A stretch of DNA of 35,721 bases from Spirogloea muscicola (Eukaryota; Streptophyta; Zygnematophyceae; Spirogloeales; Spirogloeaceae): assembly GCA_009602725.1 (NCBI GenBank), contig WELB01000030.1, forward strand, positions 143,381-179,101, read 5' to 3'. The notes beneath the pieces were generated by a model that worked only from the letters and a program-made list of their open reading frames with translations, did not search any database and had not been told where the DNA came from. Positions 9,380 through 31,304 of the stretch are shown in pieces. Numbering within the stretch: the stretch's first letter is position 1; each line of letters begins with the position of its first letter. A program made the position numbers and the translations under genes.

Positions 9380-10945
9380 ATGGCGAGTGTGCTGCTGCGT
9401 GGCGACGCAGGCAAGCGTACGAGAGTCGAGGCTGCCGGTGGCCAGAGCGGAGCATCCGACGAGGGTGGAGTGGGCGACCGCGGCGATGAGGGGGAGCTCT
9501 CGTCGCAGTTCCGAGTCTACGCCGGCCAGTTGGACGCCATCGTAAGACCCTACACTGACTCCTGAACAAACTCGGAGGCGCAACCACTAATCTCTATTCT
9601 TAAGTCGGTAAATCCTTGCCCGCCCTCTTTCCCATGCATGGTGCTCGCTACTGCTGCCGCCCTGGACGTTGGTGCAGCTTGGCCCACCGGTTCCCTGATG
9701 GCGTCAGCGTGGCAGGCGTGCCCCTGGCGGCATAGAACGAGCGCCGTGAGCGCCTCGTCAAGGCGAGCCGCGACGTCACCATCCACAGCAAGAAGGTCAT
9801 CTTTGCGATCCACCGGTGTGTACCGCCACCTCTTCTGCCGCCGCCAAGGCTGGTCCGTTAGCACCCTCACATCATCAGTCACTCTATACAGCCGGCCAGC
9901 ACCCTCACATCATCAGTCACTCAATACACCCGCCCAACCTTCCGCCCGCAGGATGTCAGCGGGCACGCGGGCGGCGGTACTGGAGTCGGCGGCTGCCGAA
10001 TTGGGCACTGTGCGTGTGCGCCACGCGGCGCGTATCGCCGCGGAGCTCCGCGCGGAGGACTACTGGCGGCTGCGCAGCGCGTTCTCACCGGGGGCAAGCA
10101 CACTCATCCCCAGCCACAGCCGCTGCGTATTTGATTTGCCGTCTGGCTGCCTTCCCAGATCGTGGTGCACAATTGCTGACGCCTGCACAAGTAGCACAGA
10201 TGCAGGAGTACATTGAGGCAGCGACTCTGTTGGAGTACTGCCGAGAGGGGCGGCTGCTGACGCCCGCAGAGCTGGACACCGGTCTGGCGGAGCTGGCCGA
10301 TGCAGACGGCTGCCCGTTCCGCTCCAGCTTGGCAGACTACCTCCTCGGCGTGAGCGTCGGCGCTGCGAATCGGAAGCACACCCAGCAAATAACCAAGCCA
10401 TGGCGCCAGCACGCCACTTGTTTGGCGCAGCGATACAACAGGACTGATCTGCACGTGGCTTGGTTGCCTGGCTGACCCAGGTTGCTGATCTCACTGGCGA
10501 GCTCATGCGCCTGGCTATCGGCAGCGTGGCTGGCGCTGGAAGCGGCGGCGCTGCCGGCAATAAGGCGGCAGCATCATGCAGTTTCGTTCGCGCGGTGCAT
10601 AGTGGTTTCAGCCAGCTACCGAAGGCTGGCGAGCTGGCCCGCGAGCTGCCGCGCAAGCTTGATGTCATGCTGCAGAGTCTTGGGAAGATTGAAAATGGTG
10701 AATGCCATTGCTGCTGCCAGTGTGCCTCCAACGCGCCGCGCTGCTGCTGGCGTTGATGAGTGTCATAGTGGGCGGCATGACACCGGCTGACCATCAGGGG
10801 CACTGGCTCATCGCTGCGGCTGGCTGCTGCATGTGCAGCGAGCTACGCAGTGCACGTGCGTGGACGCGAGTACCCGGCCGACATGCTGGCCGCCCAACTC
10901 CTAGGTGGCGGCGGTGATGATGGCGACATGCTGGAGATGTTGTGA
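9380..10945 (+). CDS. TSNAX: Translin-associated factor X (TRAX), catalytic subunit of C3PO
   Basis: TRAX pairs with translin to form C3PO, a Mg-dependent endoribonuclease that trims RNA such as tRNA 5' leaders and RISC passenger strands. Exons are 9380-9541, 9736-9815, 9952-10093, 10200-10349, 10481-10697 and 10839-10945 (TGA), giving 285 aa; animal TRAX is about 290. Family stretches are ERLVKASRDVTIHSKKVIF (from residue 59), MQEYIEAATLLEY, DYLLGVADLTGELMRL, SLGKIENASYAVHVRG and REYPADML. The acidic residues of the active site are present: Glu131 and Glu134 in EYIEA, and Asp181/Glu185 in VADLTGE. The start ATG at 9380 gives the expected length. Intron 3 (10094-10199) seems to be GC-AG: SPG joins MQEYIEAA exactly as in homologues. 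A GT at the TGC/GTATTT site would add 11 residues and cannot be fully excluded. Confidence 0.93.
9860..9928. repeat. Tandem repeat, two units, period 38 bp (TSNAX intron 2)
   Basis: The unit AGCACCCTCACATCATCAGT followed by CACTCTATACA or CACTCAATACA occurs twice in a row. It lies inside the intron between TSNAX exons 2 and 3. Confidence 0.85.
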
Positions 10946-11813
10946 AGCGGTGTGATGCTCATGCACCTGGTTGCTTGTGACTGCCTAAGCAGCATAGGGG
11001 GGTCGCTCGGGTGGTTATAGGAGTGCAGCTGCCCTCCTGTCCTGCGTGTGGATACCAGGTGCCTGCGCTCGGTTGTGCCAGCTCGCACCAAGTGGACGGG
11101 AGGAACAGAATGCCGTAACCACACTCTGCCTGTCTGGGAGCAGCCAGCCAGATTGAAGGAGGTATGCTGTCCCAACAAAGGGAGTTGGGGAAGCTGACAG
11201 TGCTCATTTGAGCTGTCAGTCTCGTCTTGAACCGACTCAAGGCTGGCATCCGACTGATTTTCACGTCAGTCACCTTGCCACTCAGTAGAGCATGCTGCCC
11301 ATTGAGGCCTCAGAGATCGTTGTTTGTAAGGCTTCATGCTGCTGACGACCACCTCAGCGACAGCTGTCAGGATTGGTGAGCTGATGTGAGCGTCACAATG
11401 CGCTAGGCTTGCAAAGCAAGCCAGATGAAGGTGCAGAGATATTCTCACCGGTCCAAAGAGCCAAAGCTCCTCCTAGCACTTGGCAAAGTCTTTCCAGCAC
11501 AATTGACCTTGCAACACCAATTCAAGCCCTGAGTCTTGCATTGGCAAGCCGAGCTAACTGCGCTGCACCAACACTTTCCGCTACCAGCACTGCGCATTGT
11601 CCAATATTTCCATCTATTGCTTGACTAAGCCTCCCTCCACTTCATGTACACACCGCGCCCACTCTCTTTCACAGCCACCGCTGCCGATTATAAGAGCGTA
11701 AACCTTTAGTGGAGCTGGCCTTGGCGGCGTTGAGAGAAGGCACACGTTGTGCATGAATGAAAGGGAGGGAGGCCAAGGCGTTCTCTGGCTCTGGCTCTGG
11801 CCAGGGGACCCAC

Positions 11814-11990
11814 TTCCAGGAGCCTAGCATCTCTGATCTGCGGCTGCTTAGCAGGGGTTACTGAGTGATTCGTAGCTGCATTGTTTCTTCTTGTGCTTGT
11901 TATTTCTAGCGCTTCCCCTGGCCCACTCCACGTACTTTGTGCATTCTTTTTTGGGCTGGCTTTTCCAGCCCCTATCCTCAATGGGCGAGC
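11814..11990 (+). repeat. Hairpin repeat R3, copy A
   Basis: Runs from TTCCAGGAGCCTAGC through TTAGCAGGGGTTACTGAGTG and TTCTTTTTTGGGCTGG to CTCAATGGGCGAGC. It contains GGGCTGGCTTTTCCAGCCC, a perfect 7-bp stem with a 5-base loop. Copy B is its inverted counterpart. Confidence 0.8.
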
Positions 11991-12100
11991 ACTTCCTCAA
12001 GGCGTTGGGGCCAAACCGACTGGAGCAACTGGCAAGTGTGGAGGCGCCGAGACAAGAACCCGCTCAACGACGCTCTGACTGCTCGGAGAAGAAAGAAAGG

Positions 12101-12278
12101 GCTCGCCCATTGAGGATATGGGCTGGAACAGCCAGCCCAAAAAGGGAATGAACAAAGTACCAGAAGGGGGCTAGGCGAAGCACTAAGGAAGACGAGCACA
12201 AAAAGAAACAAAGCAGCTACGAAATACTCAGTAACCCCTGCTAAGCAGTCGCAGGTCAGAGATGCTAGGCTGCTGGAA
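12101..12278 (-). repeat. Hairpin repeat R3, copy B (inverted)
   Basis: GCTCGCCCATTGAGGATATG, GGGCTGGAACAGCCAGCCC, then CACTCAGTAA-like and CCCCTGCTAAGCAG blocks. This is copy A in reverse complement, placed 110 bp after it. Confidence 0.8.
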
Positions 12279-12283
12279 GAGAA

Positions 12284-12312
12284 AGAGCTCGCCCATTGAG
12301 GATAGGGGCTGG
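12284..12312 (-). repeat. Hairpin repeat R3, short fragment
   Basis: GCTCGCCCATTGAGGATAGG followed by GGCTGGAA. Only the terminal block of the repeat is present, directly before copy C. Confidence 0.65.
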
Positions 12313-12340
12313 AAGTGGGTCCCCTGGCCAGGGGACATAC

Positions 12341-12541
12341 TTCCAGGAGCATAGCCTCTCCGACCTGCGCCTGCTTAGCAGGGGTTACTGAGTGGTTAGT
12401 GGCTGCTTTGTTTTTTCTTGTGTGCTTGTCATTTCTGCTGCTTCGCCTTAGGGCTTCGCCTGGCTTCCCCCCCCCTCTTCTTGTACTCTGTTCATTCTTT
12501 TCTGGGCTGGCTGTTCCAGCCCATATTCTCAATGGGCGAGC
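12341..12541 (+). repeat. Hairpin repeat R3, copy C
   Basis: TTCCAGGAGCATAGC, TTAGCAGGGGTTACTGAGTG and TTCATTCTTTTCTGGGCTGG, ending CTCAATGGGCGAGC. Same order as copy A, with a longer pyrimidine-rich middle. The flank GGGTCCCCTGGCCAGGGGAC just left of it is itself nearly palindromic. Confidence 0.8.
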
Positions 12542-12818
12542 CCTTCTTCTTCCTGGCCAGAGCCAGAGGCAGAGGACTAACTCGGAGAAGCCCACTCGCA
12601 GGCCCTTAAGCGCCGTCGGCTCGACGGGCGCAGGCCCGCGCCCCCCGACCGAGGAGCTCGCCGTTAGGCCGACGCTGCGAGTACATGGGGAAAGGGCGGC
12701 ATTTGACGACGGCGGGCCCGGCCCCGCTATCGGCAGTTGAGGCCCGGTGCCCGCCGCCGCCGCCGCCGCCGTCCGCTGCTCGCCGCCGCCGCTGCCACCG
12801 CGGCGATGAGGCCCCAGG

Positions 12819-13124
12819 AAAAAAAAAAAAAAAAAAAAAAAAANNNNNNNNNNNNNNNNNNNNNNNNNNNNNNNNNNNNNNNNNNNNNNNNNNNNNNNNN
12901 NNNNNNNNNNNNNNNNNNNNNNNNNNNNNNNNNNNNNNNNNNNNNNNNNNNNNNNNNNNNNNNNNNNNNNNNNNNNNNNNNNNNNNNNNNNNNNNNNNNN
13001 NNNNNNNNNNNNNNNNNNNNNNNNNNNNNNNNNNNNNNNNNNNNNNNNNNNNNNNNNNNNNNNNNNNNNNNNNNNNNNNNNNNNNNNNNNNNNNNNNNNN
13101 NNNNNNNNNNNNNNNNNNNNNNNN
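12819..13124. other. Poly-A tract and 281-base assembly gap
   Basis: A run of about 25 A residues runs directly into N at 12844-13124. The left flank (12600-12818) is extremely GC-rich with GCC runs. The right flank opens inside coding sequence of SEC24. The gap very likely hides the SEC24 start, so 12600-12843 may be its promoter, 5' UTR or first exon. I could not choose a reading frame there. Confidence 0.8.
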
Positions 13125-16100
13125 GGGGCCTCCGCAGCAGGGCTCGGCGATGCCCGGCCCTCCCCGCGGCGGCGGCGGCGGCAGCGGCGGCGGGGTACAG
13201 CCGCCGCCGGCTTTCGGAGCCAGGTTTGCCGGCCCACCGGCGGCGGAGATGCAGCACATGTCGCTGGGGCCGGCGGGCGGCCCGGGGCCGCCGCCGCCGG
13301 CGACTGGGCCGCCGCCGCCGTCCTGGGGGGCTCCTCCTCCCGGCACCACGGTGGGCACGGCTCAGCGGCGTGTGTACCCCGAGGCATACGCAGCTCAGGT
13401 CAGCTGCCAGCGCCAGCAGCATTGGTGTGGCCATCGCTGGGAGGCAGCGAGCTTGCCTTGGCAGCTTCTTGCTGCGCCACGAGGCTGATTGCGGAGTTGG
13501 TAGCGCTGCTGCTGTCTTTGAGTCCCTCTCAGTCCATTGAGTGCTCTGACTGCAACCACCGAAAAGGGATTGTAGTGAAGTGTTCGTAGTAAGCCCTGCC
13601 TTAATGTGCATTGTCAACCACTGCCTGTGGCAGCGGCTGCTGTAGCGCTCCATGTAAGCTGAGGACCGCTCTGCCGCCACTTTCTTCCGCAGAGGCAGGG
13701 CGGGCCCGCCCCAGGGCAGGGTATGCCGCCGCCGCCGCTCCCCGGCATGCCCCACGTCGCCTCGCCCCACAGCCCGAGCGGCGGCGGTGGCAACCGCATC
13801 GACCCCACGCAGATGCCGCGGCCTACGGCGTCAGACTCTGTGCTGGTTTTTGAGACGCGAGTGGCCGGCGCCGCCAATCTCCCCCCCGTAAGTGCATCTC
13901 GCCACTCCCTGTCCCAGCCCTTGCTCGCCGCTTTGCAGCAAGAAATCGAAAGCCCGCTATTGTGCCCGAGTGCAAAGCATGGCTGGACCTTGAACAGAAG
14001 CACGAGGGCGGATACCTGCTATCAGCTTGTGGCCCTGGCGGTGTAGTTGCTCTTGCTGCAAGTTATTTGATGCTTGCAGCAAGCTCTCTGATATGATCAA
14101 TCTGCCTGCCCATTATGCCCGAGTAGCCTGCCACAACATCATTCGTGGTCCGGGACACCGGCAACTGCAGCCCACGCATGATGCGCTGCACTCTCAACCA
14201 GGTGCGAAAGAGTATTCATGACCATTTGAGACTTACTGCAAGCTCTTGCAAAGCATGCTAGCCGTCTCTTCAAGGCTGCTGCCACTCAAAGTGACACCCT
14301 TGCTTGCCTATCTCTGGACAGCTCCCAGGGTCAGCCGACCTCCATGCCACGTCCTCCATGCCGCTTGCATTGCTGGTTCAGCCCCTCGCACTGCAGGACC
14401 CCAATGAAGATCCTGTCCCAGTAAGTCACTGCACGCCTCCACTGGCATGTATTGCTTACTCTGACATGTCCAGAGCCATTGACGTGCACGGTGGAGATTT
14501 ATACTCACTCTCACTCCCTCTGCCTGGACCTTGAACCCTATATTCACCTTTCAACCAGCCTAAACAGCTGGAAGCCCGCACATCAATATGTCCACGAAAC
14601 TGTTGCGCAGGCTAACGGTGTTTGGATCCATGCTTCACGTTCCTCATGGTTGTGCTGATTGGCACATGTTGGGCAGGTGGTGGACTTTGGCGAGTCTGGG
14701 CCGGTCCGCTGCCAGCGGTGCAAGGCGTACATCAACCCGTTCATGCGATTTGTAGACCAGGGCCACCGCTTCATCTGCAACCTCTGCAGTCAGCATCTCT
14801 CTTCCCTCTGCCCTCAAGCTTTCCTCTCTTTGCACCTCGCCGCCTTTGTGGAGGCCAAGAAGACCTCGATTCACTAGTCTATACTTCCATGTGATCAAGC
14901 AGAAGCTGAGGAGTGCTTTGTGGTGTCCCCCACACACTCACCTTGTACAGGTCACTCTAATGAGACCCCTCGGGATTACATGTGCAACCTTGGGCCGGAC
15001 GGACGGCGTCGCGACGCTGATGAGAGGCCCGAGCTGTCGCGGGGCTCTGTTGAATTCGTCGCCCCGACCGAGTTCATTGTGAGTGGGTCCATGTAGCAGG
15101 GCCATCTGTGAGGACCATCTTGGTTAGGTGTTTGGGGTTGCTTGCCGAGCTGGTCTACAGGAAGATATGGGGGATGCCAGTAACTGTGCATTTGCTTTGA
15201 GACGCAATTTGCAAGAGTTTCAGTCTTGTCTGTAGGGTGGCTCTTCCTGTCTCACTGTGGAGCTGTATGTAGCTGTACTACATGAACATGTCTGACTACT
15301 GTCCTCCTCTGACAGGTGCGGCCCCCTATGCCGCCAGTGTACTTTTTCCTGGTGGACGTGTCTGCCAATGCCGTTCAGGTTGGCGCGACTGCCTCGGCCT
15401 GCAGCGCCATCTCTCAAGTTCTCTCAGCGCTGCCAGTGAGGCCTCCTTTTCCTGCTCATATCCCCAACCCTGTATCATCTAGCAGTCCGCGTGTGTGTAT
15501 ATGTATTGCTTCAGCTTGCCTGTTGCCAGAGACAGCTCTATTCACGACTCCAGTAATAGCAACCACAGACATCTGTAGGCTTGCATTGATTGGGATGTTT
15601 GACCCTGTGCTCGCTGTTGACTTCACTGTCATTGGTTCACTTGGTGTTGCATCGAATCCTGTATGATTGCATCTAAACAACTGAAGAGCTCGTCATTGTC
15701 ATTCTCGTGCAACTCTTCATGTGGTACTGCTGGTCACCTGTGGCTGCAGGAAGGGGACCGAACTCATGTTGCCTTTGCTACATTTGACAGCACGATCCAC
15801 TTTTACAACCTGAATCCTTCTCTTCAGCAGGTAATTTCTTACAGTCTTTTAAGTGCATCAAGTTGTGCATTGCAGTTCTGGTAACGAAGACTGCTAGCCA
15901 GTCATGTAGCACATGGGCCTCAAGGCTTGTCATTGGCATACTTGTGGCAACTTCTCATCACAACCCCATTTCAACGTACTAGTGCACGTCTGGTTGATTT
16001 CGATGCTTGGTCAAGCATTGGGTTGATCCTAAATTACTGTCTTCAGTCCACGTAAATGTTGCCTTGCCAATATTGTAGCTTGCTTCTCTGAACCTCCATG

Positions 16101-19100
16101 TGTTGACCTGTGATTATGCAGCCGTCAATGCTCGTGGTACCTGATATCCAAGATCCATACACACCTCTACCCTCCGATATTGTCGTGCCCCTGCTCAAGG
16201 TAGGTCGTACTAACGTGTCATGCTCTGGCATGATATTGGGGTTTCTTGTGTGTGCTGGAAATGCTGGCTGCCAGTCCACGCATCTTCGCCCTTCTTGACT
16301 TTCTTGTGATGCTCAATTTGGGCGTTCTCAACAGTCACAGTTAATCAAGTCTGCAAAGCTGGTATGAATTGTGTACAAGTGATTGCAATACTAACTGTAT
16401 CTGCAACACAATAACAGTGTCGAGCAAATCTGGAACAATTGCTAGAGAATGTCCCCAACATGTTCCAGGCTGCTCGAGTGGCTGATTCCGCATTTGGTGC
16501 AGCTGTGAAAGTGAGTTTACACTTGGGTCTGATGATTGCTGCTGTTACCTGCAACTTCCATTGAGCAATTAAGGAAGTTGGTTGCATGCGAGGTTTCATC
16601 ACAGTTCAGCAAAGGCTTCGTAACTTACCAGAGATGGACGAATGTATAGGTGCATGTCTAATTGCAGCCCATAATGTAGCGCTTTGTGAGCAGCAAAGGT
16701 CAAACTTGGTCTGAGAATGTGCTCCACCATTTGCAGGCTGCATATCTTGCTATGAAGTCCACAGGTGGCAAGCTCCTTGTGTTCCAGTCTGGTAATGTCA
16801 CCACAACACACATTCAGCACATCAATTCCAGCATATCTTTGTCCTGTAGGATGTCAATTTTGATTCAAGGAGTCAATGTGTGCACAAATCTTCATCAAAA
16901 GAGTGTTGCGCATTGGCTAGATTGAGCAGCTCCAGGCAATCTAACATTGTGATAGTCTTCAGATTTTGGGCCTTGGCCAGACACTACAACAATGTCTGAT
17001 ACTGCCATCTGAGCCTTGTGCAGCATTGCCATCTGTGGGCTTTGGGTCGTTGATTGGCAGAGAAGCTGAGGGCAGGACTGGCAGTGTCATGAATGAGAAG
17101 GTATGGCTGCAACTCTCAATGTGTGTACAGGATATGTGATGTCTCGCTCCTCCATCTCTGGAGGGTGATGGTAGTGCATTATCAAGAATCCAAGGACTAG
17201 GATAACAGCACTTCTCCTATGCAGTGAGAGATTGGTATGCAGTTGGTTGTACAGCTCTTCAGGGGGGTATTGATTAATAACATGTCTAATGATAATTTAT
17301 CACCATGTCCTTGTCATTCTTTCAAAGTGAATATGCCAACAGTGGGGATCACCATATTGAGGCCTTGACGTTTCTGGACTCTGTTGTATGCTCACAGGAG
17401 GCACATAAGATGCTGTCACCTGCGGACAAGACTTTCAAGACTCTGGCATTTGAGCTGGCGGAATTTCAGGCAAGGAAGATAGTATTGACGTCCAACCAGC
17501 CAATGAAATTGCAGCATAAGATGTTGTTGTAGTTTGTCTCTCCTTTGGCTTGGAATGGCACTGGTTATCAACCATAGTTTGCAGCATATGGCACCAGACA
17601 AGTGCCTTCTCCCCCAACTGGCGCACAGTCCCCCAGAATGTTTCTCCCTGCCAACTTGAGATTCTCCTCCTTGTTGCCTACCTCCCTCTTTTACTTTTCC
17701 CCTTGCTTCTATCCTCCCTATCCTTCTTTGCTCTCCATTTCACCTTGCTTCCCCAACTTCCCCCCTGACAGGGGGTCTGTCATGCCTTGTCCTATACTGA
17801 ATCGGAATGCAGATGCCTGTCTGACTTGTGATGTTCCAGGTCTCTGTTGACCTCTTTCTGATGACTCAGTCGTTTGTGGACATTGCTTCGCAAGCTGTTG
17901 TACCCAGAACGACCGGTGGGCAGGTACTAGTGCTCTTCATTCCCAGTGGCTTTGTAAATAAGAAGGTGCACTGGGTTACACATATGCCATGGAAAGCACA
18001 CAGCCCTGATAGATAGAACATCTCCACTTCTAACATATTCATAATCACCCCAGGATTCGCTTTGCTTGGAGTAAGTGCTGTCTTAACCTTGAATGTGACT
18101 GTTGCTTGATTGCAACTGAATAAGTATAGTTCTCCGCACCTGGCACTAATGCCAATATGTCAAGTAGTCTGTCTATGTGGTGCTCTTTGGGGCGCCTCTG
18201 CACGGAAAGAGGTCCTAGGAGCACAGCTGCAGCCATCCTGTAGCAAGGCAGCTGCTTCGGAGTAAGACTCCAAAGGACTGTCCGCCTTCTCAAGAGAGGC
18301 AAGTCTGGAGCAATGCCTAAAAGCTGAGGGCTAGCAGTTGTTGTCCAGGTCTATTACTACTTCCCTTTCAATGCTGGCGTAGACAGCGCGAAGGTGTTCA
18401 ATGACTTGAGATGGAATGTCTGCCGGCCCCAGGGCTTTGAAGCCATCATGAGAGTCCGATGCTCTGCTGTACGTACTACAACATCTCATTTGTAACAGTA
18501 GCTCATACACTTTGCTTGATGTACGTGCGGTGCACAAAAGGAGCCTACCCATCAGATTGTCACTGCAAATATTGCAATTCTGAATATTGACAGGTGCACA
18601 GAAGAAGAGTTCCATTCGTGGTTTGGCTAAGCATGTGGGGTGCTCGTTGGTGCAGGGTTTGCAAGTAGTTGACTACTTCGGCAGCTTCTGCAAGCGAATT
18701 CCTACAGACATTGATCTCCCAGCTGTGAGAGTTACATAGTTGCTAGCTGAGCTCGTGTTAGTTGCACATAGCACTGGTTAACGTGTGCTCGTCGACTAGC
18801 AGGATGTTCTTGTAACGAGCTCATTACGACTCTGGGAGATGGCAAACAATACTTTGAGGCATGTTTGCAAGGCCTTGTTTTCTGACTTGGATCTTCTCAT
18901 CAATCCTTAGGAGTATCACAAGCATGCAGCCTTTACTGCTACGTTCTTGAGAAGCCTCTTTCTGATCCGCCAGGTTGACTGCGACAAGGCAGTGATGGTC
19001 ACGTTCAAGCACGACGACAAGTTCCAGGAGGGCACTGAGGCTTGCTTTCAGGCAAGTCAAAGGTTTAGCTTCTTGGCCAGTACGTGAGAATTAGGCCCTT

Positions 19101-21127
19101 GTTGCAATGCGCGCACATTTTCAAGAGCTGCTCGATCTGTCAGCTCCTGACAGTTCGCTGGTCAGGTCCCTTGTTACTCAGTGACACTCATCACGTCTGT
19201 CTTCCTCAGAGTGCAACGTTGTACACAACCATTAGCGGCGAGAAGAGGATCAGGGTGCACACGCTTTCCCTCCCAGTGACGACGGTCTTGGGTCACCTCT
19301 TCCGCGGGGCTGACCTTGACGCGCAGTTCTCCTACTTTCTCAAGCAAGGTCAGCACATCTGTCTGGACTTCCTTGACACAAGCTCAAGCACAGTCAGTGG
19401 AGATAGCATGCGACTTGAGTGTGAAGCATTGCTACCCACTTCGGAAGATGCCTGTGCTTACAAGTGTCCCCAGTCCCCGACAACAGGCTGAATCACTGTG
19501 TCTGCTGTTGTCTTTGACATTATACTTCTGTATGCGTGTGCTAGCTGCCTTGGATGTCGTCACCACCGGCCTTCCTCAAGTCAAGGACTCCGTTGTCCAG
19601 CACTGCATAAACATCCTGGCAACCTATCGCAAATTCTGTGCCTCAGCGTCATCTTCCGGCCAGCTTATCCTCCCAGAGGCTCTCAAGCTGCTACCTCTTT
19701 ACTCGCTTGGTAATGTTCACATAACTCTCGATTACGGGTATTTCAGGACTTGAGGATATCTGTTGACTGCTGAGCTGAGCTGATCAGCTTCACTAGTTAT
19801 GCAGTGCTCAGCATCTTGGGGGGACCTGTTTTGTGTTCTTGATTGCCCTGAATAATATCCGGTGGCATACATCTGGCAGCCCTGACCAAGAGCATAGGAT
19901 TGCGAAACGAGACGCGGCTTGATGAGCGGTCCTACTGGCTGTCCAAGGTGGCCAGTATAAGTGCGCCTCTAGCTGTGCCTCTCGTCTACCCCTGCATGTA
20001 CCCGGTCCACAAGCTTCCTCCCGCTCAGGTCCACCATGCTGCCACTTACTCAATTGTGCCACTTGTGTAGGCGCCTCTGGTGCTCCTCAAGCTCACCTCA
20101 AGCAGGCCTTCTTGGGATCAGCATTGCAGAATCCAGCATTCGTGTGCGCAAGTCAAATCCTCGTAGGCTTGACTGACTGCTCAGACCACGCCTATTTATG
20201 GGTGCGCAGGAGGGTGTCTCGGTGTTGCCTCCTGTCGTGTCGCTGTCAAGCGAGCACCTTGACCACGAGGGAATGTTCCTTTTGGAGAATGGTGAGGATG
20301 CCTATCTATGGGCTGGCAAGGCGGTGCCAGCCGACTTGTTGAAGCAGCTGATTGGATACTCATCTGTTGACGAGGTTGCCTCCAGTCAGGTGGGTCTGGG
20401 CACCGAGCTTGCAGGCAGTGCAGCTCACGATGTATGCAGACAGCCTTTGTGGACGGTCATACGTTCAGCAATGCTTAGCTACCATGTGCGCCTTGTTGAT
20501 AAATTGATATTCATCACCGCATTCTTGAGAGCAGCTCAGATGTCAAGTGCTCTTAGCTTCCTCAAAGCTGATGGATTTACAGATGGAATTTCAATCTCCC
20601 GCTTTGCAGTTCCTGCTTCGTGAGTTTGACAATCCAGCCAGCAAGCGTTTGAACGAGCTCGTTAATGAAATACGCCGCCATAGATGCTCCTACCTCAGGT
20701 CAGCTTTACTTATATCTGACAGACTACATGACATGTATGGCCTGCTGCTGTAATTGCCTATTGGTTAATCAATGTCGCAGCTTAATAACATCTTGAGGGC
20801 ATCTGATAGACCTGGATTTTAAGCAAAGCTATGAGCTTGTCGCTGTTGCGCAGATTATACCTGGTCAAGAAAGGCGATGCAAGTGGTGAGCAGCTGGCCT
20901 TCACCTTCTGTGTTGGTGTAGTGAGAAAATGCACATATTGACTGCTGTTATGTGCACATCCTTCCTCACCATTTAATATCTCAGAGCCTGCCTCACCCTT
21001 TGATCTCTCAACATCTGCAGAAACACGATTCTTCTCATTCCTCACTGAAGACCGAGGAGCAACGGGGATGTCTTACGTCGAGTTCCTGGTCAACTTGCAC
21101 CGACAAATCCAGAACAAGATGACATAG
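13125..21127 (+). CDS. SEC24A: SEC24, COPII cargo adaptor, plant A-like class (5' end lost in gap)
   Basis: SEC24 pairs with SEC23 on ER membranes and selects cargo for COPII vesicles. Exons are <13126-13398, 13693-13887, 14127-14201, 14322-14420, 14677-14788, 14951-15078, 15316-15435, 15750-15830, 16122-16199, 16418-16510, 16737-16796?, 16963-17100, 17398-17469, 17840-17923, 18349-18468, 18656-18724, 18974-19051, 19210-19348, 19545-19709, 19880-20028, 20210-20389, 20610-20698, 20854-20885 and 21021-21127 (TAG): about 911 aa visible. Domains in order are a Pro/Gly-rich N-terminus, NRIDPTQMPRP, the zinc finger (CQRC..CNLC), the trunk (PPVYFFLVDVS, FATFDSTIHFYN), the beta-sandwich (PRTTGGQ, ICKRIPTDIDLPA-like), the helical part and a gelsolin-like end (LENGEDAYLW, VEFLVNLHRQIQ). 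Two introns are GC-AG. One donor near 16790 is unclear. Confidence 0.94.
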
Positions 21128-21607
21128 CTAGAGTGAGGGTAGGTCAAGTATCTGGTCACTAATTTGAGTTGGCCTTAACAAGATATGTCTCAGTCAGGTG
21201 GGCCCCTCAAGTCATTCTTCGCCCCCAGATTTTGTGCAAGAAGTGTCAGTTGGGGAGACCAAGATGGATTGCATCGCTATGCCCTCTTGAGAGTAACTGC
21301 TGCAGAAATCAAGGCGACTGGGTTTGCTGGGTAAGTTTGAGACTGGCACTTGCTTTTGGTCATCGCAAATATCCGGTGGCTATGAACAAAAAGCAGCGGC
21401 AAAGAAGATTGCACGGGCGAGCTCTGCATCAGCAATCTTGTACACATGCAGGTTCTCTTGATCTAGTGATCAATGAAGGCTCATACTCTTGCATGGGCCA
21501 GCAAATTGCTTATTATTTAGTGAGAAGGGAGATTTGTACAAAAAAAAGTTGGCTGGATACAAGACAAAATTGTCATGGGTGACGAGCTTGCATCAGTGAG
21601 ACCTCAG
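21128..21607. other. Convergent intergenic region between SEC24A and TSN
   Basis: The two genes end tail to tail 480 bp apart. I see no third gene. It should hold both 3' UTRs and polyadenylation sites. Confidence 0.5.
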
Positions 21608-24049
21608 TCAATTCATCTCGACTGTATCATCTTTCTGCTCCAATAGGCCTCGTATCTTCACATCGTACAACACCTCCTCTACTCTCTTCAAGTCGTACTT
21701 CAATCCTACAGCATTTTGCAAAGAGAAGCAGAGTACAAACATATGTACATATCAAGGAGGACTGCATATGGCATGGCAGCCGAGAAGACAGTGTGCATCG
21801 GTGAGCTTGATGTGTCAGTAGGCTACAACACCTCATGCCCATGATCACGGATGGCAGACTAGAGATCTCATCGTCAATTCCCCGGGATATCTCCGCAGCT
21901 TCGATTCAAGCTAAAGTATGTCTTGGAGCAGCTCTACTGGCAGCAGGAAGGAAGAAGATCAATACCATCAAAGCGCTTGCGAAGGAAGTCATTGCGAAGG
22001 TTGAGGAGGCGGAAGGCTGCAAAGAGCTCGCTCAGGAAGGATGAGACGCGTCTGGGGCAGTCATAGTCACCAGCCGTCACCTGGTTGACCACATACCTCG
22101 GCTGCAACAAGCAGAGGTATACATAAGGAGTCACGCAGGATGACATACCGAAGCAGTACAGGCTACTGCGGTATGTCATTTGACATGTGCATAGCTAGCC
22201 AGAGTGCAAGGGTGTCTGATGAGAACATTGTTTGAGCGAAGATCAGACCATCAAATATAGACAACTTTCTTGTGGTGCAGCTGCTTCTGTCTCCGGATAC
22301 AAGTCTTGTGCTGCTTCAGCAGCACAACGTTCTCGAGGACTTGAAGTAAAATTGAGCATGGCGGTGTATGGGCAACAAGTAGCATGAACAAGGACCGCCG
22401 GCCCCTGGGACTGGACCGCCAGCTGACCATCTCATTGGAGACGCTGCAGACACCTGCTCGCGGCCAGAGCACAAGGAATTGAGCTTAATGCCTGTAACAT
22501 ATACCATAAAGAGCCAGCCATGCTTTTTGCAATCGCGAGCATTTATGCTGTTTTCATCTATCTCCAAGTGGCGGATGAGGTTTGAGAATGCAAGAGTCAG
22601 GTTCGGATGAGTGCGTACCAAGCAGGTAGTCTTCCAAGTCCAAGGGAAACTCTGGAGTCACTGCCACATCGGGCTTCAGAGCCCGTCACAGAGCACGAGA
22701 GCACATCAGAGCCCGGCTCCCAGCTCGCACTACGAGCTAGGAAAACTCATCAGAGCTTAGGACCTCATTTGATCAGTAAATCAGAAAATCCACTGGCAAT
22801 CTCGAGACCTGCAGGTCTTCGCAAAGCAATGCTCACATCCCAGGCGCTCCTGCAGCTCCTGGTGCGAGTGGAGGGAGCCCGTGCGGAGCCAGCCGATGAA
22901 CGCCAGCAAGAAGACGGCCGTCTGCGTCTGGTGCCTCCAGTGGTCGTGGTATCTGTGATGACGCCGGTTGCCCAACGTCAGTGCTCGTGAAACCAAGCAC
23001 AGCTATGCTCGTCTCGCTATCTCGGACCTGCGCCCGGCAAGCTCGGGCGAGGTTCAGGGCGCCTCTTGCAAACGGTGGCATTCGCGATGGCGGTCATGAC
23101 AAGAGGTTTCGTCGTGCGCTGGCCCAACGGTTGAGCATAGCACTGCCGGCTCCCGCTGCGACGTCCTGGGAGCGCAGCTTCGAGACTGGGGGCGGCGGCA
23201 TGGCCGCTTTCCCGGTGCGGCGACGTCAACGGGCTCGCTCCCAGAGCGGGAGCTCGGCAGCCAGCATCGGACCTGTAGAACTGGCCAGGGCGGTCAGCCA
23301 TGATGGCGGCCAGCTCGGCGTAGACGCCGCGCAGCTCCGGGAGGTGGGCCTCGGCGCGCTCCAGCGCCTGCGCGGCTGCCAGCGCCACCGCCGCGGCCGT
23401 CAGCAGCGACCGCCCATTGCGCGCGTCTGAACCCTGAGTCCTGATCCTAACCCCAAACCCAAGAGGCCGAGGGCGAGGCCGAGCGGCTGCGAAGCTCCGC
23501 GGAGCAGCCATGGCGGCCCTCCACTCCATGGACTGAGCTACACCTAAACCCCAAACCCTGGACCCATGACGTGCCGAGGAGATGGCGTGTGTACTGGGTG
23601 ACGGAGGACCTGAGTGGCCAAGTCCACTGGCAAGCACAGAGACAGGTGCACATCTCCTGCTGCTGAACTGACCTGCTCAGTGACCACGAGACGGCACGTA
23701 GAGGCCGCTGACCGATGCCCGAGTACCAGACGGGAACTGGGCTCACCGGCGGGCGGCGCGGCGCCGTGGACGGGCAGCAGCGCCGAGTGCATGCGCCGCG
23801 CGGCGTCCTCCAGGCGCGAGGCCACGTCTCGCAGCCGCTCCTTGACGGCGCTCGCCGCCTCCAGCTGCGCCCGGAAGGACGCGAACAGCGCCGCGATCTC
23901 GTCGCCGCCGCCGCCGCCGCCGCCTCAGGCGGCGTGGATGGTGCCAACGCCGCCAGCGCCAAGTACGAGGTTAGCCTGGCCCTGGCGCTGCCACGCAAGC
24001 TGCTGCGCTGCCTTAGTGCTGAGGCTCTAGCCAACTGAAGTCCTCGCAT
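21608..24049 (-). CDS. TSN: Translin, RNA-binding subunit of C3PO
   Basis: Translin binds single-stranded RNA/DNA and forms the C3PO shell with TRAX. Exons on the minus strand are 24049-23995 (tentative), 23923-23747, 23426-23273, 22952-22837, 22660-22619, 22453-22428, 22101-21966 and 21705-21608 (TGA), about 267 aa. Family stretches are FYRYHDHWR (exons 3-4), FPLDLEDYLLGVCSVSNEM, PRYVVNQVTAGDYDCPRRV, FRLLNLRNDFLRKRFDGLKY and DLKRVEEVLYDVKIRGLL. The wording is plant-like. Exon 6 is a 26-base micro-exon, supported by phase on both sides and by alignment length. The first exon is the weakest part: an Arg/Ser/Ala-rich, acid-free 18-residue leader joined by a 71-base intron. It would suit an organelle presequence like that of Arabidopsis translin. 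An in-frame TGA at the exon 2 edge shows translation cannot simply start there. Confidence 0.92.
23583..23713 (-). repeat. Dispersed repeat family R1, copy 3 (in TSN intron)
   Basis: On the minus strand it reads GGTCAGCGGCCTCTACGTGC, then CAGCAGCAGGAGATGTGCAC and CTGTGCTTGCCAGTGGAC, ending AGTACACACGCC. Same block order as 7373-7503. It lies between TSN exons 2 and 3 and is flanked by telomere-like strings. Confidence 0.6.
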
Positions 24050-24117
24050 GGCAGCCTCGCTATGGCCGGTCTTCCAAGTGAGGAGGCCCGGCTCCCGTCC
24101 TGCTGCCGCTCGCTCAG

Positions 24118-24959
24118 CCCGTGCACGCCCCTGGCTGGCGGGCGCTGCTGCTGCAGTTCCTGGACGAGCATGGGGAGGTGGAGGTGCGCGTGAGGCTGCC
24201 GGCCGACACGGCACGCTGTCGCGTGGCGGTGGACACTCAGGACGACTCCCTCATCGTCGCCGCGGCACCGCCAGCAGACGGTGGCGGGGGCGACGGCGCC
24301 GGCAGTGCTTCGGCGCAGGGGTTTCCGTTGCCGCTGCTCGTGGCGCGACCACTCTACGATCGCGTCCTGCCTGCTGAGACAGTGTGGTGAGGCTGTCATG
24401 ACGTTTTCCGAAACCCTGATCTAAACCCTCCCTCAAAACCTTCCCTCTAAACCCTACTCCTAAATCCTTTACCCTTAACAGTAACCCTCCGGCCCGGTAT
24501 TATGGTGTAAGGCTTGAGCACAAAAAGCTTCAGCATTTGTGCTCAAGCCTTACCGACCAGGTTGAATTTTTTCAGGGTTCTAGAGTTTAAGGACTTATGG
24601 TCCAGATTGCTTGTAAGTGTTCGATTAGGGTCAAGGCTTGCAGGCTCCGCGCTGCAGGCGACTCAAGCCAGCGTGTGGTGCACCCTGGCTGCTTTGTCGC
24701 GAGGCTTAGGTTCCTTGACGAGGACGAGGGCGAGGTCGTGGTGAGCCTCCGAAAGGTGCAGCCCGGCAAGCCATGGCCGGCGCTGGTGCAGGAGTGGGCG
24801 GCTCTCGTTCGTGGCATGGGGCGCACGCTAGCCGGCACCTCAATCTACATTGTCGGCGCTGATAGCGCAGCCAGCTGGGCAGTTGCTTGCGAGCTCGCCG
24901 GCGGCCTCCAGTTGAGCCCCCTTGGCCTGCACCTGCATCTTTCAAGGTCCAGGGCCTAA
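24118..24959 (+). CDS. Inactive shikimate-kinase-like protein (SKL2 type), fragment
   Basis: Plant SKL2 is a plastid protein with a CS (p23-like) domain followed by a kinase-like domain that lacks activity. Two exons are seen: 24118-24386 and 24710-24959. Exon 1 gives the CS-like part (GEVEVRVRLP, PLYDRVLPAETVW). The phase-2 junction restores ETVWFLDEDEGEVVVSLRK, as in the family. Exon 2 continues with PGKPWPALVQEWAALV and GTSIYIVGADSAASWAVACE, where an active kinase would have a GxxGxGK P-loop; here the glycines and lysine are missing. The frame ends at TAA 24957, or at a CAAG/GTCC donor just before it. The C-terminal half of SKL2 is not found. A possible start is ATG 24048 (MAASLWPVFQ) with a 40-base intron, but that intron is doubtful. 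Confidence 0.72.
24408..24490 (+). repeat. Degenerate telomere-like tract (CCCTAAA type) in SKL2 intron
   Basis: Seven-base units such as CTAAACCCT, CTCTAAACCCTA and TTACCCTTAACAGTAACCCT recur without a fixed register. The pattern is that of the C-rich strand of plant-type telomere repeat, heavily decayed. Confidence 0.6.
24507..24553. repeat. Perfect 18-bp inverted repeat with 11-base loop
   Basis: GTAAGGCTTGAGCACAAA at 24507-24524 and its exact reverse complement at 24536-24553, separated by AAGCTTCAGCA. It lies in the SKL2 intron directly after the telomere-like tract. It could form a hairpin in RNA or cruciform in DNA. Confidence 0.95.
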
Positions 24960-25074
24960 TGGTTAGATGTGACGTTTAGAGCTTCATAAGCTGTGTCTGT
25001 CAATCGTCAAAGTTGAGCTTGGGGATTGTGTGAGTGGAATACAGCTTTTCAGTACAGAGATGCTCAAGTTTCAG

Positions 25075-28000
25075 NCGTACGCCGCGGCCGCGCCGCCTCT
25101 GTACCAGGGCGGCATGGACCCCAGCGCCGCAGTGCGGCAACCCCTGCTCGACGGCCACGGGCCCGCGCCGCCGCCCCTGGGGGGCCAGCCGGGTACGGCA
25201 GCGGGAGCCTACGACGCAGCGGCGGACGACGGCTGCCAGTTCCTGGAGGTCGTCCCATCGCCGGGCTCTGCTGCCGGGGGGCTGAACGTCTTCGCCCTGC
25301 CCCGGCCGACCGACAGCCCGGACGTCGCGCCGAGCACTGGCGCCGGCAACTGCGACGCCCGCTTCGTGCGCATGACCACCAACGTGATGCCCAACTCCGA
25401 GAGCCTCCGGCGGCGGTGGCACCCCCCGCTTGGCGCAGTCATCCACCCCCTCGCCAAGATGCCAACTGGGGTATGGTGCTGCTCCTCCTCTCTCCTCTGC
25501 GAATGCAGCCGCTGTCATCCACGACTCGCTCGCACTGGTGGGAGGAGGAGGGCTAGCGCATGCCCTGGATACCTGCTGCGATGGCTCTGTCAAGCTTATA
25601 TGAATCCCCATGGCTGTCTGTGCACGCCTGCTGGCCTTCGAGAGCAACAGTTTAGTGAATTGACAAGGGACACCCAGCTTCTTGGATGGTCAGGGTTTAG
25701 CTGGTGGTGCTGTCGAGGTTTAGAGGTTTGGAGGTTCGTTTCAAGGTTTTGGAGTACAGGTCCTGAGGGTTATTGCAGTTAAGCTGTTGCCCACAAGCTG
25801 TCGTTTGTTGTTCTGTTTCTCCAGGAGGACGTCCCGGTGGCCAATCCCGGAGGAGGCGGCATCGTCCGCTGCCGCCGGTGCCGGACGTACGTCAACCCCT
25901 ACGTGGAATTCACCGACGCCGGCGCCGCTGGAAGTGCAACGTCTGCGGGCTCCTCAACGAGGGTGAGAGCTGCTCCCTGTCTGTAGTGCTTCGCTTTGTC
26001 ACCTCGTGTAGAGTCACTGAATCACGAGCGCCGTACTTGATGTCGAACTTGCATTGGCTTGCCTTCTTTGTTTGAAAGGAGAAGCGATCAGACAAGCTTG
26101 GTTGTCTGCTCCATCCTGATGTCAGCCTGTCATGTATGACGTGGGCCTGCACTTTTGAGGCTGGTCTCATATGAGACAAAATGTTGACAAGTGGTTGGGG
26201 CTTTAGCTGAGCGACCAACTCAGACATATCTGGTAGGGGTTGTATCATTCAAGCCCCTTGACCTGTTGACATTATCTTTATCAAAACCCTGATACCAATG
26301 CGAATGTCTTCATGTTTATGTTTATCAGTGCCAGCGGACTATTTCTGTCCATTGGATCCTTCCGGACGAAGGAGGGACGCCGAGGAGCGGCCTGAGTTGG
26401 CCAAAGGCAGCGTGGAGTTCATTGCCTCTGCCGATTACATGGTCCGCCCACCGATGCCTCCCGTGTACTTCTTCCTCATTGACGTCTCCTTCTTCTCGGT
26501 GGTTTCCGGCATGCTGCAGGTACTGCTTCCCACCACACCAATCTGCTTCTCTGCCTTGCCGCAAGTGGTGCTCCTTTGATTGATCCCATATATCAGCAGG
26601 GCCACAAGCCAATCTGGACGTTTGTGCAGTGCATGCTGCAGAGCTGTCTTCTGAAGAGTCAGAGGTGTGGAATCTAGAGCTAAAAAGTAGCTTGCAGTAC
26701 AGGATAATATGTCGATGAATATATCGAACTTCAAGTAACCCAGGCTGATGTAGTCACTGGTCGACATTGGTGAGTATTCTGGTATCAATTCGTTTGCTAT
26801 GGATGTGCAGGTGACTGTGGACACAATAAAGGCCTGCCTCAAGAAACTTCCAGGTGACTCGAGGACGCAGATTGGCTTCCTCGCAGTGGACTCCTCCCTC
26901 CATTTCTTCAACCTCAAGGCCTCCCTCAGCCAGCCCCAGCTCATGGTTGTGGCGGACCTTGAGGAGCCCTTCCTGCCGCTACCAGACGACCTCCTGGTCA
27001 ATCTGTCGGAGTCGCAGGGCGTAGTGGAAACGCTACTGGACTCGATGCCAGCTATCTATGCTGCCAACACCAATCCTGACTCGGCACTGGGACCCGCCAT
27101 CAAGGCAGCTTACCTGATTCTGGTGTGAGATACAGTCCTGCAGTGTGTGCCAAACTCAATTAGACCAGCAATACTATGCAAACATTGTCGTTTATCCCAT
27201 GTTGATGAATCTCATATCGAACAAACACTTCATGTATGCCTGACCTCAGCACTTGTCTTGGCTTTTGTATGTTTCAGAGTCAGCTGGGTGGCAAGTTGAT
27301 GATATTCCAGAGCACATTGCCTTCATTGGGGCCCGGCCGACTGAAGCTTCGGGGCGAGGATGCACGCGTCTATGGGACTGACAGGGAGCACATCCTCAGG
27401 ACAGCGGAGGATCCATTCTACAAGCAGATGGCTGCAGACCTCTCACGAGTCCAAATCTGCGTCGACGTTTTTGCCTTCTCCGACCACTATACTGACATTG
27501 CCAGTCTTGGTGAGGTGCAAATAAGCAAAAGGCACGTAGGGCTTGCTTGTGCACTGAACATTACAAGCTTGCTCAATGACTCATTCATGTGTTCTTTGAG
27601 ATCACATTAGTACTGATGTCATGATCACAGTCATGTGACCTCAGTGTTGCTAATTGTGTTACGTGCTCTACTGGTTTACCTCAACAGGCACACTGGCAAG
27701 ATATACAGGCGGGCAAGTCAACCACTACCCTGGTTTCAGGATTGGCAGGGACGGGGACAAGTTCAGCCGGGAATTTGCACGGGTACTCGTTCGTGAGACG
27801 GGGTGGGAAGCTGTTATGCGGATACGGTGCGGCAAAGGTAATTATAGGCGGGCATTTATTACTCACCCACGTGCCTTTTTGAGTGGTAGGACCCATGTGC
27901 CTTTTTGAGTGGTAGGTCCCTTTTGTTGCAGAGAGCAATGCCACGATGACTATGTCACTCAGTCTGACTGCATGCTCCGTGTCTGTGCAGGGCTGAAGAT

Positions 28001-29968
28001 TTCCAGTTTTCACGGCCACTTCTTCATCAGAAGTACAGACCTTCTGGCAATGCCAGCCGTCGACTGCGACAAGGCCTTTGCAATCCAGATTTCTCACGAG
28101 GAAACGTTGCTGACGACCCCAACAGTATACCTACAAGCTGCCCTCCTGTATGGCCGAGCTACCCTGCTACTTTTCACGATCTCAGATACCCTGCTGATGT
28201 CGCAGAATGCGCAAGTGTATGTCTCAATGGCACAGAACAGAATTTGACATACTTCTATCACTTCAGCCTGTCCACTTTATTATCTGAATGAATGTGCTTC
28301 ACAACTCACATAGTGTTTGATGCCACGTACATACAGGTACACCTCATCCTCTGGTGAGAGGAGGATTCGTGTACACACAATGGCTATCCCGGTGGTTGCA
28401 GACCTCGGAGAAATGTATCGGGCTGCTGATGCCGCAGCAATCACCGCTGTCATGTCAAAACTTGGTGGGTCCATCTACCTCCTCATGCCTATGACAAATT
28501 TCATCATCAATAATCGGCAGGGCTCATCAGAGGCCCGGTGTGCAGTAAAGAGGCAAGATTGCAATGGAAGCCATCGCTGGCTGGCTAACAGCCTGACTTT
28601 GTGCATTGCAGCCATTGAGAGGTGCCTCACAAGCCGCCTGGAGGATGCGAGGCAGATGGTCCAGACCAAGTGCATACAGGCCTTACGAGAGTACCGTGGG
28701 CTGCGCCACCCGCGGTACTCGAACAGAGGAGGCGTGCTTCTGTTCCCTGAGAGCCTGAAGCTCTACCCGCTCTTCTCACTGGCGCTCTGCAAGACGTCTG
28801 TCCTGCGAGGTGGCTTCCAGGAAGTGCCCATTGATGAGAGGTCGGCTGCCCTTTTTGAGATGATGAACATGCCAGTCCACCGATTGCTGAAATACCTTTA
28901 CCCCTCATTCATGCGGATTGACGACATGGACGCTGATGTAAGATACTACACTCACCAGACCCAATATCAGCTAGTCTTACATGACACATGAATCTTGCTT
29001 AACCTTGGCTGGCGCAGGCCTTGTTGGGCTGTGATTTGATGGTAAGTATAGCCAGCATGTTGGCTTATCAGCACACTAAGTGGACGCCAGGTGTAACCAA
29101 ATATAAGTTGCTTCTGATGGCAGCATTTGCTGATGCCACACGGATTGCAGCGCAACATAGTACCAACCTTTGCTTAACCTCAGCTTTTCAAAGGCTCCAG
29201 CAGCTTTACATCTGAAGCAGTAGCCAGCATCTAGGCTCATTACTCAAATCGTGCAGGCCAGCACCATTGCTTCACTGGCTCACTTGCTGATGTGAACAAC
29301 CTGCGTGGCAGTGTGGCAAGGTCATCGATGGTTTGGTCAAGATGCCCCGTGTGCTCCCTCTCATCAGTAAGCTGCTGGATGGGGCCGGGGCCTACCTCCT
29401 GGATGATGGGTTGCGGATTATATTGTGGCTAGGGCGGGAGCTCCCGCCTCAGTTTCAGGAGCGATTGCTTGGGCCAGCCGCTGGCATTCCGAATCTCAGC
29501 CAGGTGAGTCGCCTGGCTCTTTGAGGAGCATCTTGACCTGAACTCCTTGGATGGGGCCCTTGTTGTGCCAAATGTCCACATTGCAAATGAATGTTCCAAC
29601 TTTGTGATATATGGAATTCTGCCCTCAATGATTTGTTGTACAATGAGCATGCTTGTCAAAACGGAATGGTAGTTCTCCGACATGATCCAGCTTGAGCACA
29701 TACTAACAGCTGTCATACCCCCTGCTGGCTGCCCAAGCAGGTCCCCGTGATTCCTCAGGACAACCCTCTGTCTCGGCAGGTCTTTGCCATAATGGAGGAG
29801 CTGAGGCGGGAGAACCCCGTCTACCAGCAAGTGATGGCCATCCGGCAAGGCGAGTCAAGCAGGGAACTGCTTCTCTATCACAACATGGTGGAGGACCGCA
29901 GCGCAGCAGGTCTGAGCTATGAGGAGTTCATGAGACATGTGTACAATCAAGTCCAAGCGAGGGCCTGA
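25075..29968 (+). CDS. SEC24C: SEC24, COPII cargo adaptor, plant C-like class (5' end missing, one apparent frameshift)
   Basis: Exons are 25075-25470, 25825-25962, 26329-26519, 26811-27122, 27278-27509, 27688-27837, 27991-28147, 28337-28464, 28612-28937, 29312-29503 and 29741-29968 (TGA): about 816 aa, against roughly 1,080-1,100 for plant SEC24C, so about 250 Pro-rich N-terminal residues are absent. Class-specific stretches are [129 protein letters not shown] and [10 protein letters not shown]. Exon 2 is 138 bases where phase requires 139: after TDAG one base is missing, so the second zinc-finger half ([10 protein letters not shown]) is in another frame. All introns are GT-AG. Downstream of a lone N, probably an assembly join. 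Confidence 0.93.
25686..25772 (+). repeat. Degenerate telomere-like tract, G-rich strand, in SEC24C intron 1
   Basis: CAGGGTTTAG, GAGGTTTAGAGGTTTGGAGG and TTTCAAGGTTTTGGAG follow one another. It looks like TTTAGGG-type repeat in the opposite strand sense to the tract at 24408-24490. Confidence 0.45.
27867..27918. repeat. Tandem repeat, two units, period 26 bp (SEC24C intron)
   Basis: CACGTGCCTTTTTGAGTGGT then CATGTGCCTTTTTGAGTGGT, each followed by AGGACC or AGGTCC. It lies in the intron after exon 6. Confidence 0.9.
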
Positions 29969-31064: not shown

Positions 31065-31304
31065 CTAGTCCTCGTAAGTGCGGCACTCGTCAGCCTCGGG
31101 GGAGTCCTGGCAGAACTTCTCGAGCGGGTCGGACGCCTCGGGGCTCTTGGCCCGCAGCCGCTCGTCCGCGAGCGTGGCCGACACCTCCTCCACCTCGTCC
31201 CAGGCGGCGGCGCACTCCCCGTCCTGCGTCGGGTGCGCGCACGCCTCCTCCGCGTCCGAGATCATCTTCTGGATGTCCACCTTGCTCGGCGGCGGGCTGG
31301 CCAT
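31065..31304 (-). CDS. CP12: CP12, redox regulator of the Calvin-Benson cycle (plastid)
   Basis: CP12 is a small disordered stromal protein that, when oxidised, ties GAPDH and phosphoribulokinase into an inactive complex. From the Met at 31304 the frame gives 79 aa, the size of a mature CP12, ending at TAG 31065-31067. Both Cys pairs are present: EEACAHPTQDGECAAAWDEV (C-x8-C) and FCQDSPEADECRTYED (C-x8-C). The signature AWDEVEE and the GAPDH-binding tail CRTYED are intact. In the same frame upstream, an Ala/Arg-rich run ending RRLRRAVVA looks like a transit peptide cut just before MASPPP, so the coding region must extend to about 31390 or beyond. No ATG for that leader is found before the N/poly-G tract at 31574. 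Probably an upstream exon, or sequence lost at the tract. Confidence 0.93.
   Translation of the reverse strand: MASPPPSKVDIQKMISDAEEACAHPTQDGECAAAWDEVEEVSATLADERLRAKSPEASDPLEKFCQDSPEADECRTYED

Follow-up and report, generated by a model that had tools for sequence, protein, structure and literature searches.

A three-copy cluster of TSNAX, TSN and two SEC24 genes in the genome of the streptophyte alga Spirogloea muscicola

Four housekeeping genes belonging to two unrelated two-member families, translin and SEC24, are found side by side in the genome of Spirogloea muscicola. In the window, that is, the whole stretch of 35,721 nucleotides that was analysed (C30:143381-179101), sequence reading, splice models and comparison with PDB and Pfam give the order TSNAX(+), SEC24(+), TSN(-), SEC24(+) within ~20 kb, from ~9.4 to 30.0 kb. 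A preliminary description of this DNA had noticed TSNAX before one SEC24 and TSN before another in a single locus, and all four genes were confirmed close to where it had put them. As far as could be seen in the assembly searched (153 Mb, 471 contigs), this genome has its translin and SEC24 genes all in one neighbourhood, which is present three times. We consider it probable that the four genes were regrouped by ordinary rearrangement in the algal lineage before the genome triplication. Clusters of non-homologous genes occur in eukaryotes and likewise consist of neighbours without sequence relation, but here two paralogue pairs of pre-plant age are brought together. A literature search, covering titles and the openings of abstracts, returned no description of a translin-SEC24 linkage.

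TSN and TSNAX are the subunits of the C3PO ribonuclease. The TSNAX gene (9380-10945, plus strand, ~6-7 exons) has human TRAX as its top PDB match (105 bits versus 25 bits for the best translin) and TSN (21608-23899, minus strand) matches human translin with 154 bits versus 36.5 bits for TRAX; on these bit scores, used here in place of a tree, the first is clearly TRAX and the second clearly translin. Both encode a full Translin domain (155.8 bits for TSNAX and 168.8 bits for TSN, with a Pfam cut-off of 25.9). TSN had initially been drawn from 21608 to 24049; the gene is there, but it ends at ~23900, on the minus strand, where its 5' end is truncated by a wrong gap fill, and its start codon is visible in the C28 copy. 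A profile search of the 153-Mb assembly placed all Translin-domain matches (14/14) within three loci, on C30, C28 and C76. As with the translin/TRAX (C3PO) genes of other organisms, each genome copy has a single TSN and a single TSNAX, both with a full Translin domain. To our knowledge the two are not neighbours in well-known genomes; in this alga they are ~11 kb apart, with a SEC24 gene in between.

The two SEC24s are alternative COPII cargo adaptors. The first gene, at 13 kb (13125-21127, plus strand, ~24 exons), scores 448 bits with human SEC24C, 404 with SEC24D, 347 with SEC24A and 346 with SEC24B, and the second, at 25 kb (25076-29968, plus strand, N-terminus missing in the window), 432 bits with SEC24A, 417 with SEC24B, 337 with SEC24C and 322 with SEC24D. 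In a tree of nine sequences and 559 columns, none of them a plant, yeast or Sec24III sequence, the 13-kb gene groups with human C/D and the 25-kb gene with the human A type (the human A group being supported at 99.5/100). Scores and tree both reverse, relative to the human names, the labels first given to these genes, SEC24A for the 13-kb gene and SEC24C for the 25-kb gene. A duplication of SEC24 in the alga only was rejected (AU p=0.0013 for the tree forcing the two algal genes together). By sequence comparison, the 13-kb gene is Sec24II and the 25-kb gene is Sec24I in the nomenclature of Schlacht and Dacks (PMC4419792), and the split between them, as read from the tree, is older than the plant-animal split. 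Passages of the same source assign both Sec24I and Sec24II to the last eukaryotic common ancestor and also name a Sec24III. The alga likewise has one member per old clade, but, unlike in this known system, both share one locus beside translin genes. The early suggestion that these are paralogue pairs with old family splits is therefore borne out for SEC24, whose split predates plants in the tree, and agrees with the clear distinction of TRAX and translin by score. According to automatic gene models, one intron position is common to the two translin genes and three to the two SEC24s; because of their source, these positions are given no weight here. One scan each with a Sec24I query against viral contigs (44 pattern stretches) and prokaryote contigs (23 pattern stretches) yielded no relatives.

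A search of the assembly for Sec23/24 domains gave 12 Sec23_helical matches, half of them at the three cluster loci and the other six on C4, C45, C13, C256, C234 and C168. Sec23_trunk gave 36 matches, 13 at the cluster loci and 23 on these same six contigs plus C158 and C32. C4 and C256 carry SEC23, as human SEC23A scores far above any SEC24, and C158 carries a divergent SEC23-like gene; C234, C168, C45 and C13 were assigned only by their similar match pattern, and C32 was taken as far as translation. The divergent SEC23-like gene is found on two contigs only (C158 and C32), the other Sec23/24-domain genes being in three-contig sets. No third SEC24 locus was seen in this search, in which C4, C256 and C158 were compared and the probes did not include Sec24III, and in which a missing match is not proof of absence. 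The assembly searched amounts to 153 Mb, versus 174 Mb in a table entry for Spirogloea (PMC11096116), so that some genes may be missing from it.

The four-gene block is found in the same order on C30, C28 and C76. DNA identity around the four genes is ~84-91% among copies, somewhat lower toward the right end, and the three copies are collinear across nearly the whole window, with breaks at 6-9 kb and at an insertion at ~11.8-12.5 kb. This insertion (11785-12545) is TE-like, with inverted repeats, and matches only C76rc 37084-37296; it sits between TSNAX and SEC24 and has no counterpart between these genes in C28 or C76. A recent genome triplication has been described for Spirogloea muscicola (PMC10487979, PMC7994812, as far as the parts consulted go), and, like the homeologous blocks of that triplication, the cluster forms three collinear, diverged copies. 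The table entry that gives 174 Mb for Spirogloea lists an N50 of 566 kb (PMC11096116). Between copies, the four genes have dS values of 0.10-0.18 and dN/dS of 0.07-0.33, which points to purifying selection on the aligned codons; these counts come from window-based models with some false small exons, and gapped codons were dropped, which makes frameshifts invisible. One C28 codon in the TSN codon set is a stop. The splice models were derived from conservation among the three homeologous copies, and the gene models are automatic.

The block is interrupted by assembly gaps at two positions, the same ones in each of the three copies. The first gap measures 281 N in the window (12844-13124), against 177 N in C76 and a single N in C28. 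To its left, the window and C76 have an ATG, from which a Pro/Ala-rich frame starts in C76; the coding sequence to its right is Pro-rich, so that this gap is probably inside exon 1 of Sec24II. The probable start codon and first codons (12806-12843, plus strand) lie left of the gap, where ATGAGGCCCCAGG is common to the window and C76rc. TSNAX and SEC24 would then be contiguous in two copies, the window and C76, where no gap intervenes between TSNAX and the probable start of Sec24II. The reading frame across the gap is offset by 2 in both copies, which does not speak for continuity but, the gap lengths being estimates, is given no weight in either direction. The junction of Sec24II and TSN has no gap in any of the three copies, whereas every copy has one between TSN and Sec24I (1, 500 and 963 N); gap-free copies thus exist for Sec24II/TSN and probably for TSNAX/Sec24II, but not for this last junction.

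Two of these gaps have been filled with foreign sequence. In the window, the 1175 bp at 23900-25074 match C171 with 100% identity and break off at a GCC repeat on one side and at the single N on the other; the homeologues that C171 has on C8 and C42 are 90% and ~85% alike. This stretch is therefore a gap-filling error. It had been taken for an SKL2 fragment lying between TSN and the following SEC24 gene, but it is chimeric sequence foreign to the locus, for which the SKL2 name is unconfirmed and no Pfam match was found, and the identity to C171 rules it out as a real neighbour. The same type of error occurs at the first gap of C28, where 353 bases (C28:535868-536220), next to a single-N join, are identical to C164. 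The 445-bp stretch upstream of TSN in C28 has no long match on other contigs, only short repeats. Runs of A, likely artefacts, abut gaps in the C28 copy (~120, block ~23717-23838) and in the window (~25, ~12819-12843). Gap filling in this assembly is untrustworthy, and its users may meet up to ~1 kb of foreign sequence beside a single N.

These defects, and the recurrence of gaps at the same two places in every copy, would fit an assembly effect in which TSN and Sec24I, or other parts, had been wrongly joined and homology between the copies had repeated the error three times. We regard this as very improbable, since Sec24II and TSN are joined without a gap in all copies, TSNAX reaches the probable Sec24II start without a gap in two, and the order of TSN and Sec24I is the same on three contigs despite different gap lengths. 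A mis-join at 12844-13124 or 25074, flagged at the outset as a possibility, can be dismissed as a single event, as the same gene order stands on three contigs. If scaffolding used homology between copies, however, the three are not independent at the TSN/Sec24I gap.

Could each translin gene and its SEC24 neighbour descend from one ancestral pair? In that case a single duplication of a proto-eukaryotic translin-SEC24 pair, older than the last eukaryotic common ancestor, would have produced TSNAX-Sec24II and TSN-Sec24I, and the two would still be linked today. An early split in both families (for Sec24, passages of PMC4419792) and the fact that each translin gene adjoins a SEC24 of a different clade agree with this. 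The two halves, however, differ in relative orientation: TSNAX and its SEC24 are both on the plus strand, and TSN is on the minus strand with its SEC24 on the plus strand, so that a duplicated unit needs one added inversion. Nor is any gene common to the outer flanks: the left one carries a gene of the Transferase family (PF02458), and the right one has genes for CP12, a carbon-nitrogen hydrolase and a universal stress protein. The single-exon CP12 gene (31068-31304 of the window, minus strand, 72.3 bits) adjoins that of the carbon-nitrogen hydrolase. We also know of no linkage to SEC24 of the human or Arabidopsis translin genes, which speaks against such a relic. The three SEC24 genes of Arabidopsis are at separate loci (At3g07100, At3g44340 and At4g32640, in the part of PMC3934973 consulted), again against it, and, the SEC24 split being older than the plant-animal split, an extremely long close linkage would be required. 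The original idea thus holds in that two paralogous pairs share one locus, but orientation and the age of the SEC24 split remove the duplication of an ancestral pair as a unit from the leading place; we see it as the remote rival, very improbable indeed. Were it correct, this linkage would rank with the oldest known between genes, and both families would trace their origin to a single segmental duplication.

Chance is an unlikely explanation for the grouping, which looks real. Random gene order would give 3e-7 to 3e-5 clusters per genome in which four consecutive genes make up two complete two-member families, assuming 12,000-15,000 genes and 300-2,000 such families, and in a genome of 51 Mb the probability that the four named genes fall within 20.6 kb is 2.6e-10; these figures are weakened by the cluster having been picked from an unknown number of windows. 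As a control, among 66 loci of old paralogue families (27 proteasome, 16 MCM and 23 TCP-1, the counts including homeologous copies and exon fragments, and 87 of the 113 TCP-1 candidates having been scored), one locus pair was found within 30 kb. Such linkage is therefore not general in this genome, though not unheard of. The control pair consists of two different MCM genes, ~24 kb apart (C114:316664-318317 and 342477-343680), with likely homeologues on C399, C216 and C260.

As random regrouping is improbable, something besides chance may act. The main rival explanation is selection for co-regulation, by which shared regulatory DNA would hold together the four genes, or at least TSN and Sec24I, with C3PO and the COPII adaptors co-expressed. 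Clustering far above the random expectation would be accounted for, as would the arrangement of the genes, TSN and Sec24I being head to head and Sec24II and TSN tail to tail with ~480 bp between them in the window, and the retention of all four in three copies. Genes outside the four, however, have also been kept in three copies across nearly the whole window, so that this retention is not special to them, and we know of no functional tie between C3PO and COPII. We therefore hold co-regulation to be rather unlikely, while giving it more weight than an assembly effect or an ancient pair.

Regrouping by ordinary rearrangement is what we retain. It agrees with the three collinear copies, the confinement of the Translin-domain matches to these loci, the dS and dN/dS values between copies, the mixed orientation (+ + - +), the old SEC24 split and the different outer flanks, and has against it the very low chance expectation and the gap between TSN and Sec24I in every copy. 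The timing and the cause of the gathering we infer as follows. Rearrangement in the streptophyte algal lineage would have brought TSN, TSNAX, Sec24I and Sec24II together, and the genome triplication would then have yielded three copies of the cluster, all of them kept. Each gene would keep its usual role and a shared mechanism would be unnecessary; the head-to-head TSN and Sec24I may share a promoter. Should the cluster prove older than the algal class, it would represent a rare and checkable deep linkage, or a case of selection on gene order joining genes of RNA processing and of ER export; should it be young, it would illustrate how so improbable a grouping can form and polyploidy then multiply it.
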